From: Hyphomicrobiales bacterium
GTDB lineage: Bacteria; Pseudomonadota; Alphaproteobacteria; Rhizobiales; Rhizobiaceae
NCBI GenBank assembly: GCA_900474095.1
Contig: UCOA01000052.1
Location: forward strand, 1 to 64,000
Length of the DNA: 64,000 nt
Direction: 5' to 3'
Shown here: positions 3,200 through 15,346 of the stretch, piece after piece
Layout: every line of letters begins with the position of its first letter
Numbering within the stretch: position 1 is the first letter of the stretch
The notes under the pieces: model-generated
What the model was told of the DNA's origin: nothing
The model's input: the letters and a program-made list of their open reading frames with translations, nothing else
Database searches by the model: none
Program-made: the position numbers and the translations under genes

Positions 3200-3610
3200 T
3201 TAGCCGGCCCTGCAGAAATACTCCCGGCCGTCATAACCGACGAAGGTGCCGGACTGCGAATCAAACGAGCGATAGCGCTGCGAGCAATAGCGATACCAGC
3301 CGGGGGTCCAGGGCTCCAATCCGCCATAGGTCTCGACCACGACGGGGCGGGCGCGGCGATAGACCGGGCGCGGTTCGTAATATTCGGGCTCCGGATCGAC
3401 ATAAACCCGTTCCTGATAGCGCGGCTGGCTGGCAAGCGCGCCGCCGATAACTACGCCCGTGGCAAGACCGAGTGCGCCGAGCGCGACCGCATCACCGTTG
3501 TTGTGGTGGTGCCGGCGGCGCCAATCCTCAGCCTGCGCGGACGTTACTGTCGGGATGACGGTTGCCGCGGTTGCAAGGGCGAGAACGGCAGCTTTGATAC
3601 ATGAGTTCAT
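3200..3610 (-). CDS. BA14K-family secreted/membrane protein
   Basis: 136 residues. A signal peptide spans about residues 1-27, ending TSAQA before the basic stretch WRRRHHHNNGD. A glycine/alanine hydrophobic segment follows (about 40-60, LGALGLATGVVIGGAL), then a tyrosine/proline-rich linker. The C-terminal BA14K-like module carries YCSQRYRSFDSQSGTFVGYDG and a final cysteine. BA14K proteins were first described as immunoreactive Brucella antigens with lectin-like activity and are frequent in Rhizobiales. The ribosome site CAGGATCG supports the start. It ends against a shared terminator with the MBL gene. Its role here is unknown. Confidence 0.87.
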   Translation of the reverse strand: MNSCIKAAVLALATAATVIPTVTSAQAEDWRRRHHHNNGDAVALGALGLATGVVIGGALASQPRYQERVYVDPEPEYYEPRPVYRRARPVVVETYGGLEPWTPGWYRYCSQRYRSFDSQSGTFVGYDGREYFCRAG

Positions 3611-4556: not shown

Positions 4557-5711
4557 TCAGCTTTTCTTGTCCGCGGCGGAGATGCGCAACAGCCGGCCAT
4601 CGTCTCCGTCCGTCACCACAAGCACCGCGCCGTCGGGCGCCACCTTGACATCGCGGATACGGCCGAATTCGCCTTCGAACAGGCGTTCCTCCGAAATGAT
4701 CTTGCCGCTTTCATCGCGCTCCAGCCGCGCCAACAGCTGGTACTTCAGCGCCGATACCAGCAGGTTGCCGTCCCATTGCGGGAACATCGCGCCGTGATAG
4801 ACGTCGATCGCGCCCGGCGCGATGGAGGGATCCCAGTAGTAGAGCGGCTGTTCGTAGCCTTCGGCCGCCTGGCCAACGCCAATCTCGGCGCCGGAATAAT
4901 CTTTGCCATAGGTGATGACCGGCCAGCCGTAGTTCTTGCCCGGCTGCGGCGCGTTGACTTCATCGCCGCCACGCGCGCCATGCTCGACCGTCAGCAGCTG
5001 GCCCGATTGTGGATCGATGACAATGCCCTGCGGATTGCGGTGTCCCTTGGACCAGAGCTCGGGCAGGCCGGTGTTGCCGTCCTTGTAAGGATTGTTTGCG
5101 GGAATGCTGCCGTCCGGGTTGATGTGCAGGATGGAACCCGCATGATCGCGCATGTCCTGCGCCCGATCCCGCTCGCCGCGATCGCCGATCCCGAAGAACA
5201 GGCTGCCGTCGGAAGCGAAGACGATGCGCGACCCGAAATGCTGGCCCTTGCCGGTGAATTTGTTCATCCGGAAGAGTTCCTTGACGTCGGTCAGGTTCTT
5301 TGCGTCCTTTGAAAGCACGCCGCGCACGATTGCCGTTCCATAGCGGCTACCCTCCGCGACGGCCATCGACAGGAAAAGCGTGCGGTTTGTTCCAAAGCCG
5401 GGATCGAGCGCGACGTCGAGAAGCCCGCCTTGTCCTTTGCGCACACTCTTCGGAACGCCGCCGATCGGCGAGGATGCCTTGCCGTCGCGAATGATGCGAA
5501 GCTTGCCGCCAAGCTCCGTGACGATGAAGGCGCCGTCAGGCATCACTTCGACGGACCAGGGATTGTCGAGCCCGGAGGCAAGCGTTTCGACTTGAACGGG
5601 CGCCTTCTCAGTCGAAAATTGCACAGCGTCGTCAGCTGCGAGGGAAGGGCCTGCGAAGAGGACCATCGCTAGACCGGCGGCCTTATGCAGGTTTTCAAGC
5701 GTCTTCTTCAT
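4557..5711 (-). CDS. PQQ-type soluble sugar dehydrogenase (YliI/Asd-like)
   Basis: Secreted beta-propeller dehydrogenase of 384 residues, the size of the soluble aldose sugar dehydrogenase family. An N-terminal signal peptide (MKKTLENLHKAAGLAMVLF, ending SLAADD) points to the periplasm. Family landmarks include LDNPWSVEVMPDG, GQGGLLDVALDPGF, FGIGDRGERDRAQD, GHRNPQGIVIDP and EHGARGGDEVN. The start at 5711 follows a strong GGAGGGCGAG site. An upstream in-frame ATG would only add six residues. It reads in the same direction as the sortase genes, 58 bp after them, so it may be co-transcribed. The sugar substrate and cofactor use are inferred from family. Confidence 0.85.
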   Translation of the reverse strand: MKKTLENLHKAAGLAMVLFAGPSLAADDAVQFSTEKAPVQVETLASGLDNPWSVEVMPDGAFIVTELGGKLRIIRDGKASSPIGGVPKSVRKGQGGLLDVALDPGFGTNRTLFLSMAVAEGSRYGTAIVRGVLSKDAKNLTDVKELFRMNKFTGKGQHFGSRIVFASDGSLFFGIGDRGERDRAQDMRDHAGSILHINPDGSIPANNPYKDGNTGLPELWSKGHRNPQGIVIDPQSGQLLTVEHGARGGDEVNAPQPGKNYGWPVITYGKDYSGAEIGVGQAAEGYEQPLYYWDPSIAPGAIDVYHGAMFPQWDGNLLVSALKYQLLARLERDESGKIISEERLFEGEFGRIRDVKVAPDGAVLVVTDGDDGRLLRISAADKKS

Positions 5712-5769
5712 CTCGCCCTCCATTCGCACTCTGAAAAGCTGGGGTCAGGCGCGAAGGGATCAAGCCCGA

Positions 5770-6456
5770 TCAAAAGGATTTTACCGACAGTTGACTGGCG
5801 CTGTCGAGTGCGGACAGCGTCGCTTGGGCGGTATCGGGCACAAGCTCCGCATTGACGATATAGCGCAAGGGACCCTGCTCGGTCGCATCGAATGGCCAGC
5901 AGGTGGCAAGCGCCAGGTTGCGGCCGGGCGCATCCGCGTTGATGCCGCTTTCGTCCCAACGGGCGATCCTGCTCGATCGGACGCGGAATGTCAGGTTCGC
6001 GCCATCCTTGCGGGTGACCATCAGAAGGTCGCCCGGCTTGACGTCCTTTAGCCAGCGGAAATGCGTGTCGCGATGGGCGGCAATGACGGAGGTGCCGAGT
6101 TCGCCCGGTGGCGGCGTGTTCGCAAGCCGCGCCGGACCGAAAGCCAGCGCCTCGCCACTGGCGCCCGACAGCACGACCGCCGTCTTGCCGATGCGTGGCG
6201 CGGTGATCTCCGCCTCGGTCGCAAAGTCGGCCCAGGGCCAGGGTTTGACATTGGTCTCACCGTGCAGCTGCGCCTCGAAGCTTCGCTTCAGCAGTACCTG
6301 CGAAATCTCGGCCTTCGCCTTCATGTAGAAGCCTTTGCCGACCAGCATCAGGCCGGCAATCGCGATGAGGGAAATGCCTGCGAGCACCAGTGTTTCCAAC
6401 ATGCTGAGGCGCGCCAGAAAGCCGCCACGCCGGTTCATCGTCTGATTATTGGACAC
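5770..6456 (-). CDS. Class GN (Gram-negative) sortase
   Basis: Membrane-anchored cysteine transpeptidase of 228 residues. An N-terminal span covers about residues 19-41 and the catalytic domain follows. The triad is visible: H128 in SVIAAHRDTHF, C186 in LALATCWPF and R198 in GPLRYIV. This matches the proteobacterial sortase family always found beside a VIT/VWA substrate. The start is a GTG with GGAGG about nine bases upstream, and it overlaps the end of the substrate gene by 11 bp, which indicates translational coupling. Cleavage presumably occurs in the LPQTA signal of that neighbour. What the freed threonine is joined to in a Gram-negative envelope is unknown. Confidence 0.93.
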   Translation of the reverse strand: MSNNQTMNRRGGFLARLSMLETLVLAGISLIAIAGLMLVGKGFYMKAKAEISQVLLKRSFEAQLHGETNVKPWPWADFATEAEITAPRIGKTAVVLSGASGEALAFGPARLANTPPPGELGTSVIAAHRDTHFRWLKDVKPGDLLMVTRKDGANLTFRVRSSRIARWDESGINADAPGRNLALATCWPFDATEQGPLRYIVNAELVPDTAQATLSALDSASQLSVKSF

Positions 6457-8797
6457 GGCTGCGCGCCTCCAGGATGAGGCCCCGCATCTGCCAGCGCCAC
6501 AGGCCGAAGGTGGATGCCGCCATCACGGCAATGGCAAGCAGCATCAGGCCGATGAGGATATACCGGTCGGCAAGCGTCGCCGTTTGCGGCAGGTTCACCT
6601 GATTGCCCGCTTCCGCGATCAGGCTGGCGGCCCGCGCCGTTGGTGCTGCGGCCATCCGGTCGGCGACCACGATCGCCTGTTCTTCGCTCTGCTGGAGCGC
6701 GGCCTTGCGCTGATCCTCCGGCAACGCCTGGGGCGCCTTCTTGCCGAACACCTTCTCGAAATCCCAACCCTCGGGCAGGTTGAGTGGCACTTCGGTGCCG
6801 GCAACAGGTTGGCCGGCCGGACGCGACGGCGTCACGTCGACGGCAACAAGGCTGGTGACCCGCGAAACGAGATGATGGGCAAGTGCTACTGTCTCGATCT
6901 GCTTGTCGAGCACTGCCGCGTCGTTCAGGGCATAGGCGTTGGCTTCGAGGTCGTCGATCTTGCGGCGCGCCCAGAGCTTGGCAATGCCCTTGCCTTCGGA
7001 CGCCTTGGCAACATCCATCTCGACGTGCCAAGACTGGCCACCGGTCTTGCCGGTGATCTGAAGCTTGCCGGCAGCCGAGGCACCGTCGAGCTGTGCGGTC
7101 AGGACGACCGGCTCGCCGCGATAGAGGTCTGGCATCGGGTTCGGCGTGATATCCTGGGTATTCGTGCCTTCGAAGGTTACGGCGATGTCGGTCATCGCTG
7201 GATTTTCCAGCTTGTCGAACAGTTCGCCCATCCTGGCGGCGACCTGGTCCTCCGAGCCGATCAGCGTGAAGGTGCCGCGGCCGAGTTCAGCGGCCTTGGT
7301 CATGAAATGGGTGTTGGGCGCCGAGCCGATGCCGACGGTGAAGACGCGGGCGTCGCCGCGGTTCTTGGATATCTCCGCGAACAATTGCGCCTCGTTGCCG
7401 ATCGCTCCATCCGTCAGAAACACGACCTGCCGCAATGCACCGGGCTCGATCGATCCCTGGGTGCGAAGGGCTGCCTCCAGCGCCGGCAGCATTTCCGTGC
7501 CGCCATCCGCCGTCAGGCCGCGGACGAAGGCGATTGCATCCTCGCGCTTGTCCGGCGCCGCCGGCACAAGGGAGGGAAAATGCACGCTCATCGTGTCATC
7601 GAAACGGATGACGTTGAACCTGTCTTCCGGCCGCAGCTTGGAGATTGCAAGCGCCAGGCTTTCGCGCGCCTGTTCGATCGATTTGCCGGCCATCGAGCCG
7701 GAATTGTCGATGACGAAGATGACTTCGCGCTTCGGATGCATTTCCGGGGTGGCGTCGATGGTCGGTGGCGTGACGAAGCCGAGCAGATAGGTCTTCCCGT
7801 CGGCCGTCTCGCGGAAGAGACCGGCACGCGGCGCCTTGCCGGCAGCTGCGTTCCAGCTCAATTCGAAATCCTTGTCGGCCGGCACGCTGCCGTTCTTCAG
7901 GGTGATCCTGCGCGCCGCGTCATCGACTGTCTGGACGTCTGTCTCGTGGAACGGCGTGGCGACAGTGCCAATCGGGAAGCCGGCGTTGAGATTGACCGTC
8001 AGCGTCACCGGATTGACCTTTGCATTCTCCGCCGGATCGAGCACGGGTGCTGTGATCTTGCCGCGGTCCGGCACCGGATCGCTGACGGCAAAGCCTGATT
8101 TGGGATCGAGATCGACGGTCTCAACGATCGGATCGGGATTGTAGCGTGGTGCGACGACCATCGGGAACCGCAACGAGAACGCGCCGCCCGACTGATGCAC
8201 GCTGCTCTGATATTCGATCTGCACGACGATGGTTTCGCCGGGGCCGATATTGGCGACCTGATTGGTAAAGATGTTCGGGCGCTGCTGTTCGAGAAGGGCT
8301 GTCTTCTTTCCTGCGGCCTTGGCTTCCTCATAGACCTTGCGGGCTTCTTCGCGCGCCTTGATCTCGCCCTCGATGAAGCGCTCGCCGATCTGCATCTTCA
8401 GCGTATCGACGGCGGAGTTTTCCGGCAACGGGAATACGTAGGTGCCCTCGACCCAGCCCTTGCTTGGGTTCTGGAACCGCTGTGTGACGCGGGTACGCAG
8501 GATCGGGCCGTTGACGTCGATCTGAACGTCGGTCGCCAACCGCGGCGCCTCGACGAAGGAGCCGGGCTCCTTGGAGGGGAAGAGCAGGGCGCCTGTGCCC
8601 ATGTCGTTGGGGTGCACATAGCCTGCGAAGTGCTGCGGTTTGGTTTCTCCGGTCTCGGCCGAAGCCTGCGAGAAAAAGCCCATGACGAAAAACAGGACGA
8701 CCGTCACGGCGACAAGCACTGCGACCAGCAGATATTCGACGTATCGCGTGTACTGGCGGCGCGGTATCGTGGCGCCGATTTCGGTATCGACAAACAT
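6446..8797 (-). CDS. Sortase substrate with VIT and von Willebrand A domains
   Basis: 783-residue envelope protein. In order: a short cytoplasmic N-terminus; a membrane span (about 19-43, LLVAVLVAVTVVLFFVMGFF); a VIT domain (about 70-200, including WVEGTYVFPLPENSAVDTL); a VWA domain starting near REVIFVIDNSGSMAGKS, with an intact DxSxS metal site; and a C-terminal sorting signal. That signal is LPQTA at 736, then a hydrophobic segment and basic residues. This is the layout of the family known as marine proteobacterial sortase target proteins. The ATG at 8797 was preferred over an upstream GTG-side extension because it puts the span at the N-terminus. It is the first gene of a run with the sortase. 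Confidence 0.92.
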   Translation of the reverse strand: MFVDTEIGATIPRRQYTRYVEYLLVAVLVAVTVVLFFVMGFFSQASAETGETKPQHFAGYVHPNDMGTGALLFPSKEPGSFVEAPRLATDVQIDVNGPILRTRVTQRFQNPSKGWVEGTYVFPLPENSAVDTLKMQIGERFIEGEIKAREEARKVYEEAKAAGKKTALLEQQRPNIFTNQVANIGPGETIVVQIEYQSSVHQSGGAFSLRFPMVVAPRYNPDPIVETVDLDPKSGFAVSDPVPDRGKITAPVLDPAENAKVNPVTLTVNLNAGFPIGTVATPFHETDVQTVDDAARRITLKNGSVPADKDFELSWNAAAGKAPRAGLFRETADGKTYLLGFVTPPTIDATPEMHPKREVIFVIDNSGSMAGKSIEQARESLALAISKLRPEDRFNVIRFDDTMSVHFPSLVPAAPDKREDAIAFVRGLTADGGTEMLPALEAALRTQGSIEPGALRQVVFLTDGAIGNEAQLFAEISKNRGDARVFTVGIGSAPNTHFMTKAAELGRGTFTLIGSEDQVAARMGELFDKLENPAMTDIAVTFEGTNTQDITPNPMPDLYRGEPVVLTAQLDGASAAGKLQITGKTGGQSWHVEMDVAKASEGKGIAKLWARRKIDDLEANAYALNDAAVLDKQIETVALAHHLVSRVTSLVAVDVTPSRPAGQPVAGTEVPLNLPEGWDFEKVFGKKAPQALPEDQRKAALQQSEEQAIVVADRMAAAPTARAASLIAEAGNQVNLPQTATLADRYILIGLMLLAIAVMAASTFGLWRWQMRGLILEARSRVQ

Positions 8798-10467
<1,670 letters not shown>

Positions 10468-14723: not shown

Positions 14724-14816
14724 CAATCGACCTTGTATCGCCAAATCTCGATATACCGATATGTAGATCGTGTTTGTCCGATATTCAAATCACGTCTCTG
14801 TGAGGGGATTCTGGGC

Positions 14817-14940
14817 AAAAAAAGAGGGCCACGGGAAAACCGGGCCCTTTAAGTGTGAAGGTCAAAAACCTCCAGAGGGGAACAGCTGCTGCGGTGGCAC
14901 TGGGAGGAAAAAGACCACCATCTGCATCAGCTGGATTGGA
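14817..14940 (-). ncRNA. abcR: AbcR-like small RNA, copy distal to lsrB
   Basis: Minus-strand small RNA of about 120 nt inferred from sequence. It ends in a strong terminator: a GGGCC-type stem followed by seven T (plus-strand A at 14817-14823). The core at 14867-14912 is identical over 46 bases to the second copy at 15074-15119. That core carries CCTCCC and TTCCCCTC on the RNA strand, which are complementary to ribosome-binding sites. Tandem AbcR1/AbcR2 (alpha-r15 family) RNAs beside a LysR gene are known from Sinorhizobium, Agrobacterium and Brucella, where they work with Hfq on ABC-transporter mRNAs. The exact 5' end and which copy is AbcR1 are not determined. Confidence 0.82.
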
Positions 14941-15019
14941 TATGGGAAAAGGGGCTGCGCAATTCAACCCGCGGCGCCGAGAAAAATTGCAACTTTTGGG
15001 ATGTACCTGAAATCAAGGC

Positions 15020-15150
15020 AAAAAAAGAGGGCCACAAGAAAACTTGGGCCCTTTATAGTTATGAAGGTAATTAAACCTCCAGAGGGGAACAGCTGCTGCG
15101 GTGGCACTGGGAGGAAAAAAGCCACCAAACTGCATCAGCTGCAGTCGATA
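15020..15150 (-). ncRNA. abcR: AbcR-like small RNA, copy proximal to lsrB
   Basis: Second copy of the same RNA, about 130 nt. The terminator stem is GGGCC, CAAG, a short A loop, CTTG and GGCCC, followed by seven T on the RNA strand (plus-strand A at 15020-15026). It shares the 46-base core with the distal copy, but the terminator loop and the 5' part have diverged. The 5' end is placed only approximately by the end of similarity (TGATGCAG region near 15135). It lies about 200 bp downstream of the lsrB stop on the same strand. Separate promoters are likely, since the sequences upstream of the two copies differ. Confidence 0.82.
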
Positions 15151-15346
15151 TGATGGTTTTTTGGGCGAACTGCAATGATTTAATATGCATGACAGCCATG
15201 TGCCGGACGCAGCCCTGCGCAATTTTCAAGCGATTTAAATCGCTTATGTCGTTGAGATTATCAAGGCCGTGGCGATAAACGAGTTAAAACAGGAGTTTGT
15301 CGAGGAGGAATTAGAGAGCATTTTTTGTGCAACTGCGAAGAGGACT

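Follow-up and report, generated by a model that had tools for sequence, protein, structure and literature searches.

A one-client class GN sortase locus in a Rhizobiaceae genome and the paired ChvI-type boxes that suggest its control by ExoS-ChvI

Class D sortases join LPxTA-type proteins to diaminopimelate, and the heavy chains of inter-alpha-inhibitor are linked by their C-terminus to glycan. ExoS-ChvI, a stress switch that takes part in plant symbiosis, has been studied in detail. The class GN sortases (model TIGR03784) are a rare Gram-negative form of the enzymes that attach proteins to cell surfaces. They pair with VIT/VWA substrates (TIGR03788, marine proteobacterial sortase target), and in pds clusters the pdsO, substrate and sortase genes lie beside a divergent pdsR-pdsS pair (TIGR03789, TIGR03787, TIGR03785). 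TIGR03784 was already cited in 2011 (PMC3237569), and a 2023 paper gave the role of Gram-negative sortases as unknown and the enzymes as limited to halotolerant proteobacteria (PMC10581121). Here we describe such a sortase-substrate pair in the first 64,000 nucleotides of contig UCOA01000052.1 (hereafter the window), from the 6.4-Mb, 279-contig genome of a soil bacterium of the order Hyphomicrobiales, family Rhizobiaceae. The locus is likely to be a one-client class GN sortase system under ExoS(ChvG)-ChvI envelope-stress control, its client probably attached to peptidoglycan. Three features of the sequence support this reading: the sortase keeps its catalytic residues, its only VIT/VWA substrate ends in an LPQTA-helix-basic tail, and a pair of ChvI-type boxes lies upstream (Table 1).

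By sequence comparison, the enzyme-client pair belongs to a known Gram-negative family and the pairing is not new, as a first-pass annotation of this DNA had stated. Both proteins exceed the curated cut-offs, the sortase with 201.8 bits against 158.25 (TIGR03784) and the substrate with 845 bits against 551.65 (TIGR03788). That annotation had also named His128, Cys186 and Arg198 in the sortase, an 11-bp overlap between the two open reading frames, and a substrate ending in LPQTA, a hydrophobic segment and basic residues. All three residues stand at those numbers, the overlap occupies 6446-6456, and the substrate carries the C-terminal LPxTx-helix-basic tail of its family. In the AlphaFold2 model of the sortase (mean predicted local distance difference test score, pLDDT, 88), a long helix (residues 19-64) containing the membrane segment precedes the sortase domain. 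The best 50 Foldseek matches to this model are all sortases, headed by the class D catalytic domain 2ln7, which is also the top PDB match by sequence. For the substrate the model reaches moderate quality (pLDDT 69.6), and its three top matches among solved folds are all inter-alpha-inhibitor heavy chain 1 (with 6fpy, 621 aligned columns, E 9e-37, template modelling scores 0.54/0.68 and 16% identity). Residues D364, S366, S368, T434 and D463 of the VWA domain are invariant in 24 aligned sequences, window included, a pattern that fits a metal-binding metal ion-dependent adhesion site (MIDAS).

The claim of one class GN sortase with one cognate substrate was examined across the genome. TIGR03784 matches once, and a search for LPxTx-transmembrane-basic tails, proposed in the first-pass annotation and run here with a profile built from 17 related tails, returned a single match at E 1e-26, the next-ranked candidate standing at E 1.64 (150 of 151 candidates scored); both results agree with the claim. 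A codon-pattern search for such tails gave two matches, the substrate and one other, and seven with the reversed control. Coupling of the two genes extends through the family: of 199 same-family genomes, 25 have TIGR03784 over cut-off and 24 have TIGR03788; all 24 fall among those 25, with none in the other 174. A further 64 named relatives with the locus include Rhizobium, Pararhizobium and Ensifer/Sinorhizobium (S. meliloti is not among them). The family and named loci overlap by eight records (L038 and L057, for example, are the same record), so that the 90 sortase and 89 substrate rows reduce to 82 distinct sortases, window included, and 81 distinct substrates. The substrate C-terminus is LPxTA in 76 of the 81. 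Such a spread through rhizobia exceeds the limit to halotolerant proteobacteria stated in PMC10581121. As a separate observation, one genome with a single GN sortase match encodes a second, more distant TIGR03788 relative of 456.8 bits, below cut-off (G065:C300:946-2889, plus strand).

The first-pass annotation had missed the region upstream of the substrate gene. In 52 of 54 such regions it holds two 15-mers of the form N-GCC-N8-GYC at a spacing of exactly 33 bp (the exceptions are L071 and L100). The 54 regions, all distinct, comprise the window and 53 of the 60 named loci L052-L111, those whose match starts at residue 1; seven of the 60 were dropped and L112-L115 were unused. In alignments of 36 regions, made in three groups, the pair sits within a conserved block, and the boxes hold a nearly constant distance to the substrate start. 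In the window genome the tandem pattern has one exact match, none at one mismatch and six at two; the reversed pattern gave four in all. A score matrix built from 25 distinct substrate-promoter sites places the two boxes first and second in the window. When it was applied to 23 same-family loci, some of which are the same records as named loci, 13 had a site within 500 nt that scored 13.6 bits or more, and nine had the exact pair. A score of at least 16 was reached at none of 695,812 background positions near the loci tested, a figure that is too optimistic genome-wide in view of the single-box matches described below.

This regulatory region suggests, from its sequence, a tie between the operon and ExoS-ChvI. 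The top match to the PdsR model in the window genome is a response regulator gene whose neighbours are an HprK-type gene and a kinase gene encoding the domains Stimulus_sens_1 and Sensor_TM1, an arrangement from which we take the two regulators to be ChvI and ExoS. When the substrate-promoter matrix was applied to chvI promoters, the top site per locus scored 16.7-17.7 bits and lay 97-127 bp upstream of the chvI match in five of five Rhizobiaceae. The full ChvI consensus is reportedly given in Ratib 2018. A one-line form for S. meliloti is quoted as 15 bp, N-GCC-N8-GCC (PMC9731502), to which the two boxes N-GCC-N8-GYC correspond. In that species, SMc01580 matches at 80% an Ensifer protein named a marine proteobacterial sortase target (table in PMC6637203), and, from gene order, SMc01581 would be the sortase. 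ChvI binds the SMc01580 upstream region (PMC3687685); an SMc01580 reporter is induced by JspA and at pH 6 and curtailed in jspA and lppA mutants (PMC10659215); and smc01581 is described as a known direct target induced by the peptide NCR247 (PMC12486126, a preprint). SMc01580 is also listed in acid, phosphatidylcholine and Clr data sets, where it is labelled hypothetical (PMC2651895, PMC8343143, PMC5498481). In the literature searched, which left most subscription papers outside, the terms "ChvI" and "sortase" met only in PMC6637203, in separate contexts; no relevant paper was found on PdsO, PdsR or PdsS together with a sortase, and no published account described a global envelope-stress regulator that takes the place of a dedicated one, the regulators being related and the DNA repeat similar.

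The one family genome with TIGR03784 but not TIGR03788, L051, has a sortase barely over cut-off (158.7 bits) in which Asn replaces the catalytic His (locus 7956-9234, minus strand). The neighbouring open reading frame has 218 residues, or 186 when counted from an MFLEDE start. Its similarity to the substrate family is confined to the two ends (13.2 and 11.4 bits); it has no Pfam domain, no VIT, VWA or LPxTA, and reads FAQSA at the LPQTA position. Its promoter retains a good box (18.0 bits) and, 33 bp off, a weak partner (9.7). This single case suggests a joint decay of enzyme and client.

We compared the locus with dedicated PdsR/PdsS/PdsO clusters elsewhere. Among 398 genomes of the phylum, TIGR03784 matches in 37 (33 over cut-off) and PdsS is over cut-off in 17, 12 of those with a sortase; the window's own class contributes 19 genomes with a sortase, and PdsS is over cut-off in none of them. 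The kinase search scored two candidates per genome at most. Five genomes (G537, G510, G467, G564 and G355) have PdsS over cut-off and no TIGR03784 match; there, either the sortase has been lost or the regulator has another target. In the window genome the best PdsR match reaches 223.3 bits against a cut-off of 335.7 (the next, 141), and the best PdsS match, among the two of 33 candidates scored, 151.6 against 612.2. These best matches are the neighbouring ChvI and ExoS genes; in each of the seven further genomes of the class that appear in both lists, the best matches likewise lie side by side. No pdsO lies next to the substrate, the only place examined for it; an aminotransferase gene stands there instead. 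The first-pass annotation had called the system complete. Sortase and substrate are indeed adjacent, but PdsO, PdsR and PdsS, which stand beside the pair in some other classes, do not adjoin it here.

The two kinds of regulator are close kin. In an unrooted tree of 53 proteins, including 32 paralogues chosen among those nearest the PdsR model rather than all paralogues, ten PdsR and 11 ChvI-type proteins join, each type forming one group (support 100/97 and 100/96, two models). At 19 further loci, pdsR is nearby in eight, all among the 13 loci from other classes and all divergent from the substrate; pdsO is matched in seven, weakly in L147, and the three checked all pass TIGR03789. Of 27 loci taken for their pdsR promoters, L236 was dropped for want of pdsR. 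Among the other 26, GGC-N8-GGC stands in the 260 nt upstream of pdsR in 18, against a shuffle mean of 3.1 and no shuffle in 1000 as high, and it lies 90-145 nt upstream in 15. At the 17 loci below 50% GC it is found in 11, against 0.7 for shuffles; because the pdsR loci are related to each other, the shuffles make them look more independent than they are. At pdsR, spacings of 21, 22 and 32 recur as well, in 14, 14 and 15 loci, a pattern expected if the sites lie on a single face of the helix. On the operon strand the repeat reads GCC-N8-GCC. Of the seven loci in which pdsO was matched, five carry it upstream of that gene, four at -97 to -126 and the fifth at -190; L157 lacks it, and the copy at -274 in L147 was not counted. 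Directly before the substrate in other classes the repeat was seen in two of 13 loci (L154 at -60, L159 at -379), which we do not take as conserved.

From these observations a sequence of events can be proposed. Under acid, antimicrobial-peptide or lipid stress, phosphorylated ChvI would switch the operon on. The substrate would be exported via Sec and cut by signal peptidase at its N-terminus, by eye between ASA and E, while its C-terminal helix would retain it in the inner membrane. Cys186 would then cleave between Thr739 and Ala740, and the Thr carboxyl would pass to a periplasmic amine, most likely the meso-diaminopimelate of peptidoglycan or a precursor. So fixed to the wall, the heavy-chain-shaped client might bind a partner through its VIT/VWA part and reinforce the envelope. 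Meso-diaminopimelate is, by analogy, a plausible if not quite probable acceptor, proposed because of the kinship with class D sortases and the use of diaminopimelate by that class. A broader and more doubtful proposal gives GN sortases an ancient role as the output arm of a single envelope-stress pathway of the ChvG/ChvI type. This pathway would work through a dedicated PdsS-PdsR copy beside the sortase in some lineages and through the global ExoS-ChvI in rhizobia, in both cases by way of the same 11-bp GCC repeat, and under stress the sortases would covalently fix a heavy-chain-like VIT/VWA protein to peptidoglycan.

Several results weigh against ExoS-ChvI control. Both window boxes end in GTC, where the quoted ChvI consensus ends in GCC, and the chvI promoter has one box only. 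Outside Rhizobiaceae, four of six chvI promoters have no box (L192, 8.4 bits; L193, 4.6; L194, 8.1; L196, 0.8), the other two scoring 14.3 (L191) and 11.9 (L187). No site of at least 13.6 bits lies within 500 nt in ten of the 23 same-family loci, and no convincing box was found upstream of the substrate in six of six loci from other families of the class. A single box is unspecific: one consensus matches the genome exactly at 26 places, its reversed control at four. Of the 26, 16 score at least 16 on the matrix, and 20 lie at least partly in an open frame by a rough criterion that mistakenly counts box 2 among them. No clean regulon emerged from these 26, and the scan was dropped as a regulon list. 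On the sensor side, three scanned PdsS proteins lack Stimulus_sens_1 and Sensor_TM1, both of which are present in ExoS (ChvG). One could suppose that the boxes serve another OmpR-type regulator, of which the genome has many relatives (43 matches to the PdsR model), or aatA, the aminotransferase-like gene that diverges across the same intergenic space, the ChvI link being coincidental. We regard this as highly unlikely: ChvI binds the orthologous S. meliloti promoter region (PMC3687685), the same box type precedes chvI in all five Rhizobiaceae, and the boxes keep their near-constant distance to the substrate start.

Attachment to peptidoglycan also has competitors. Cleavage alone is possible: water would resolve the Thr-acyl enzyme and free the VIT/VWA protein into the periplasm as a stress-released soluble protein. 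With no second client in the tail search, such an outcome gains something from the five substrates lacking LPxTA (L047, L100, L106, L108 and L113), which read LPEAA, LPGAA, LPAGA, LAAGG and LPKGG beside sortases with intact His, Cys and Arg; motif change alone is thus no predictor of enzyme loss. Substrates of other classes also end in FAQTA, YPQTA, MPQTA or LPQTS, and with the family variants these make the motif looser than LPxTG. Pure hydrolysis nevertheless seems distinctly unlikely to us, since the transpeptidase Cys and Arg are kept in all 82 distinct sortases and a hydrolase, on expectation only, needs no sortase fold. By analogy to inter-alpha-inhibitor heavy chains, the acceptor might instead be a polysaccharide, a lipid or an outer-membrane component. 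The heavy-chain link forms at an Asp with no sortase involved, and the acceptors of known sortases are amines, which makes such an acceptor unlikely even with the 621-column match to heavy chain 1 and the control of exopolysaccharide genes by ExoS-ChvI (PMC10659215). A different role was raised in the first-pass annotation, which saw a possible functional partner in the pyrroloquinoline quinone (PQQ)-type dehydrogenase; the sortase system would then serve periplasmic sugar oxidation. The dehydrogenase gene does run in the same direction, 40 bp downstream of the sortase, and follows it in 55 of the 64 named loci. It is missing in the same-genus relative L038, in distant carriers and in 13 of 25 same-family stretches (present in 12, once 4 kb away), and the genome search gave no second sorting tail; partnership is accordingly very improbable indeed. 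On this distribution we rejected the dehydrogenase as a core part; it is a frequent neighbour.

For the preferred reading, a one-client system under ExoS-ChvI with a probably wall-attached client, the regulatory link suggests inducing conditions: acid, nodule-specific cysteine-rich (NCR) peptides and loss of phosphatidylcholine. Together with the tractable S. meliloti 1021 and its published SMc01580 reporter, these conditions make the acceptor and the phenotype testable. A shared ancestry is also suggested, the dedicated sortase regulator PdsR and ChvI being close kin whose genes have a similar DNA repeat.

Table 1. Positions of the locus features in the window
Feature	Position	Strand	Evidence and remarks
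Class GN sortase	5770..6456	-	228 residues, GTG start; TIGR03784, Pfam Sortase
Catalytic His128 codon	6073..6075	-	Sequence; kept in 81/82 distinct sortases
Catalytic Cys186 codon	5899..5901	-	Sequence; kept in 82/82 distinct sortases
Catalytic Arg198 codon	5863..5865	-	Sequence; kept in 82/82 distinct sortases
Sortase substrate, VIT/VWA protein	6446..8797	-	783 residues, ATG at 8797; N-terminal signal/anchor, C-terminal sorting signal
VIT domain, residues 89-196	8210..8533	-	Pfam PF08487
VWA domain, residues 358-510	7268..7726	-	Pfam PF13768
Sorting motif LPQTA, residues 736-740	6578..6592	-	Sequence
Hydrophobic helix, basic tail and stop codon after LPQTA	6446..6577	-	Sequence; helix 742-782 predicted
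ChvI-type box 1, CGCCTTGATTTGGTC	8900..8914	-	Starts -117 from substrate ATG; top-scoring site in window
ChvI-type box 2, CGCCGCAATTCCGTC	8867..8881	-	Starts -84 from substrate ATG; second-best site in window
GSDH/PQQ-type sugar dehydrogenase, not core part	4557..5729	-	Pfam PF07995
Aspartate aminotransferase-like gene (aatA), divergent, synteny marker	9118..10467	+	Best NCBIfam match aspartate transaminase, 572.4 bits, under cut-off 617; tblastn in relatives

The sortase-substrate pair is thus flanked by the GSDH dehydrogenase gene on one side and by the divergent aminotransferase-like gene on the other. Farther off, a BA14K-family small protein gene (3200-3610, minus strand) is syntenic with the sortase locus in many relatives. 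An open reading frame at 14770-15153 (plus strand) contains PPEGNSCCGGTGRKK twice as an exact internal repeat and may be a short DNA repeat, not a gene.

Set beside known systems, the substrate has the VIT-VWA architecture of inter-alpha-inhibitor heavy chain 1 (6fpy), a protein that is not known to carry a sortase signal. The class D sortases are the nearest solved relatives of the enzyme by sequence and fold and have an LPxTA-type motif in common with it; the window sortase scores 73.6 bits against the class D cut-off of 165 (NF033746) and 79.5 against 140 (NF058671), far below in both cases. The closest counterpart in S. meliloti is SMc01580, with its ChvI-bound promoter. The locus is the same as the TIGR03784/TIGR03788 pair in that both proteins are over curated cut-offs, the genes are adjacent, one substrate is found in the genome and its tail is of the LPxTA type, but pdsO, pdsR and pdsS do not adjoin it and ChvI-type boxes are present instead. 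From the pds cluster it differs in that the nearest regulator is ChvI, on another contig, in that no OmpA-like PdsO adjoins the pair, and in its unlike sensor domains; what the two have in common is the same enzyme-substrate pair, a GCC-N8-GCC repeat, which in the pds cluster stands before pdsO, and a regulator of the same clade.

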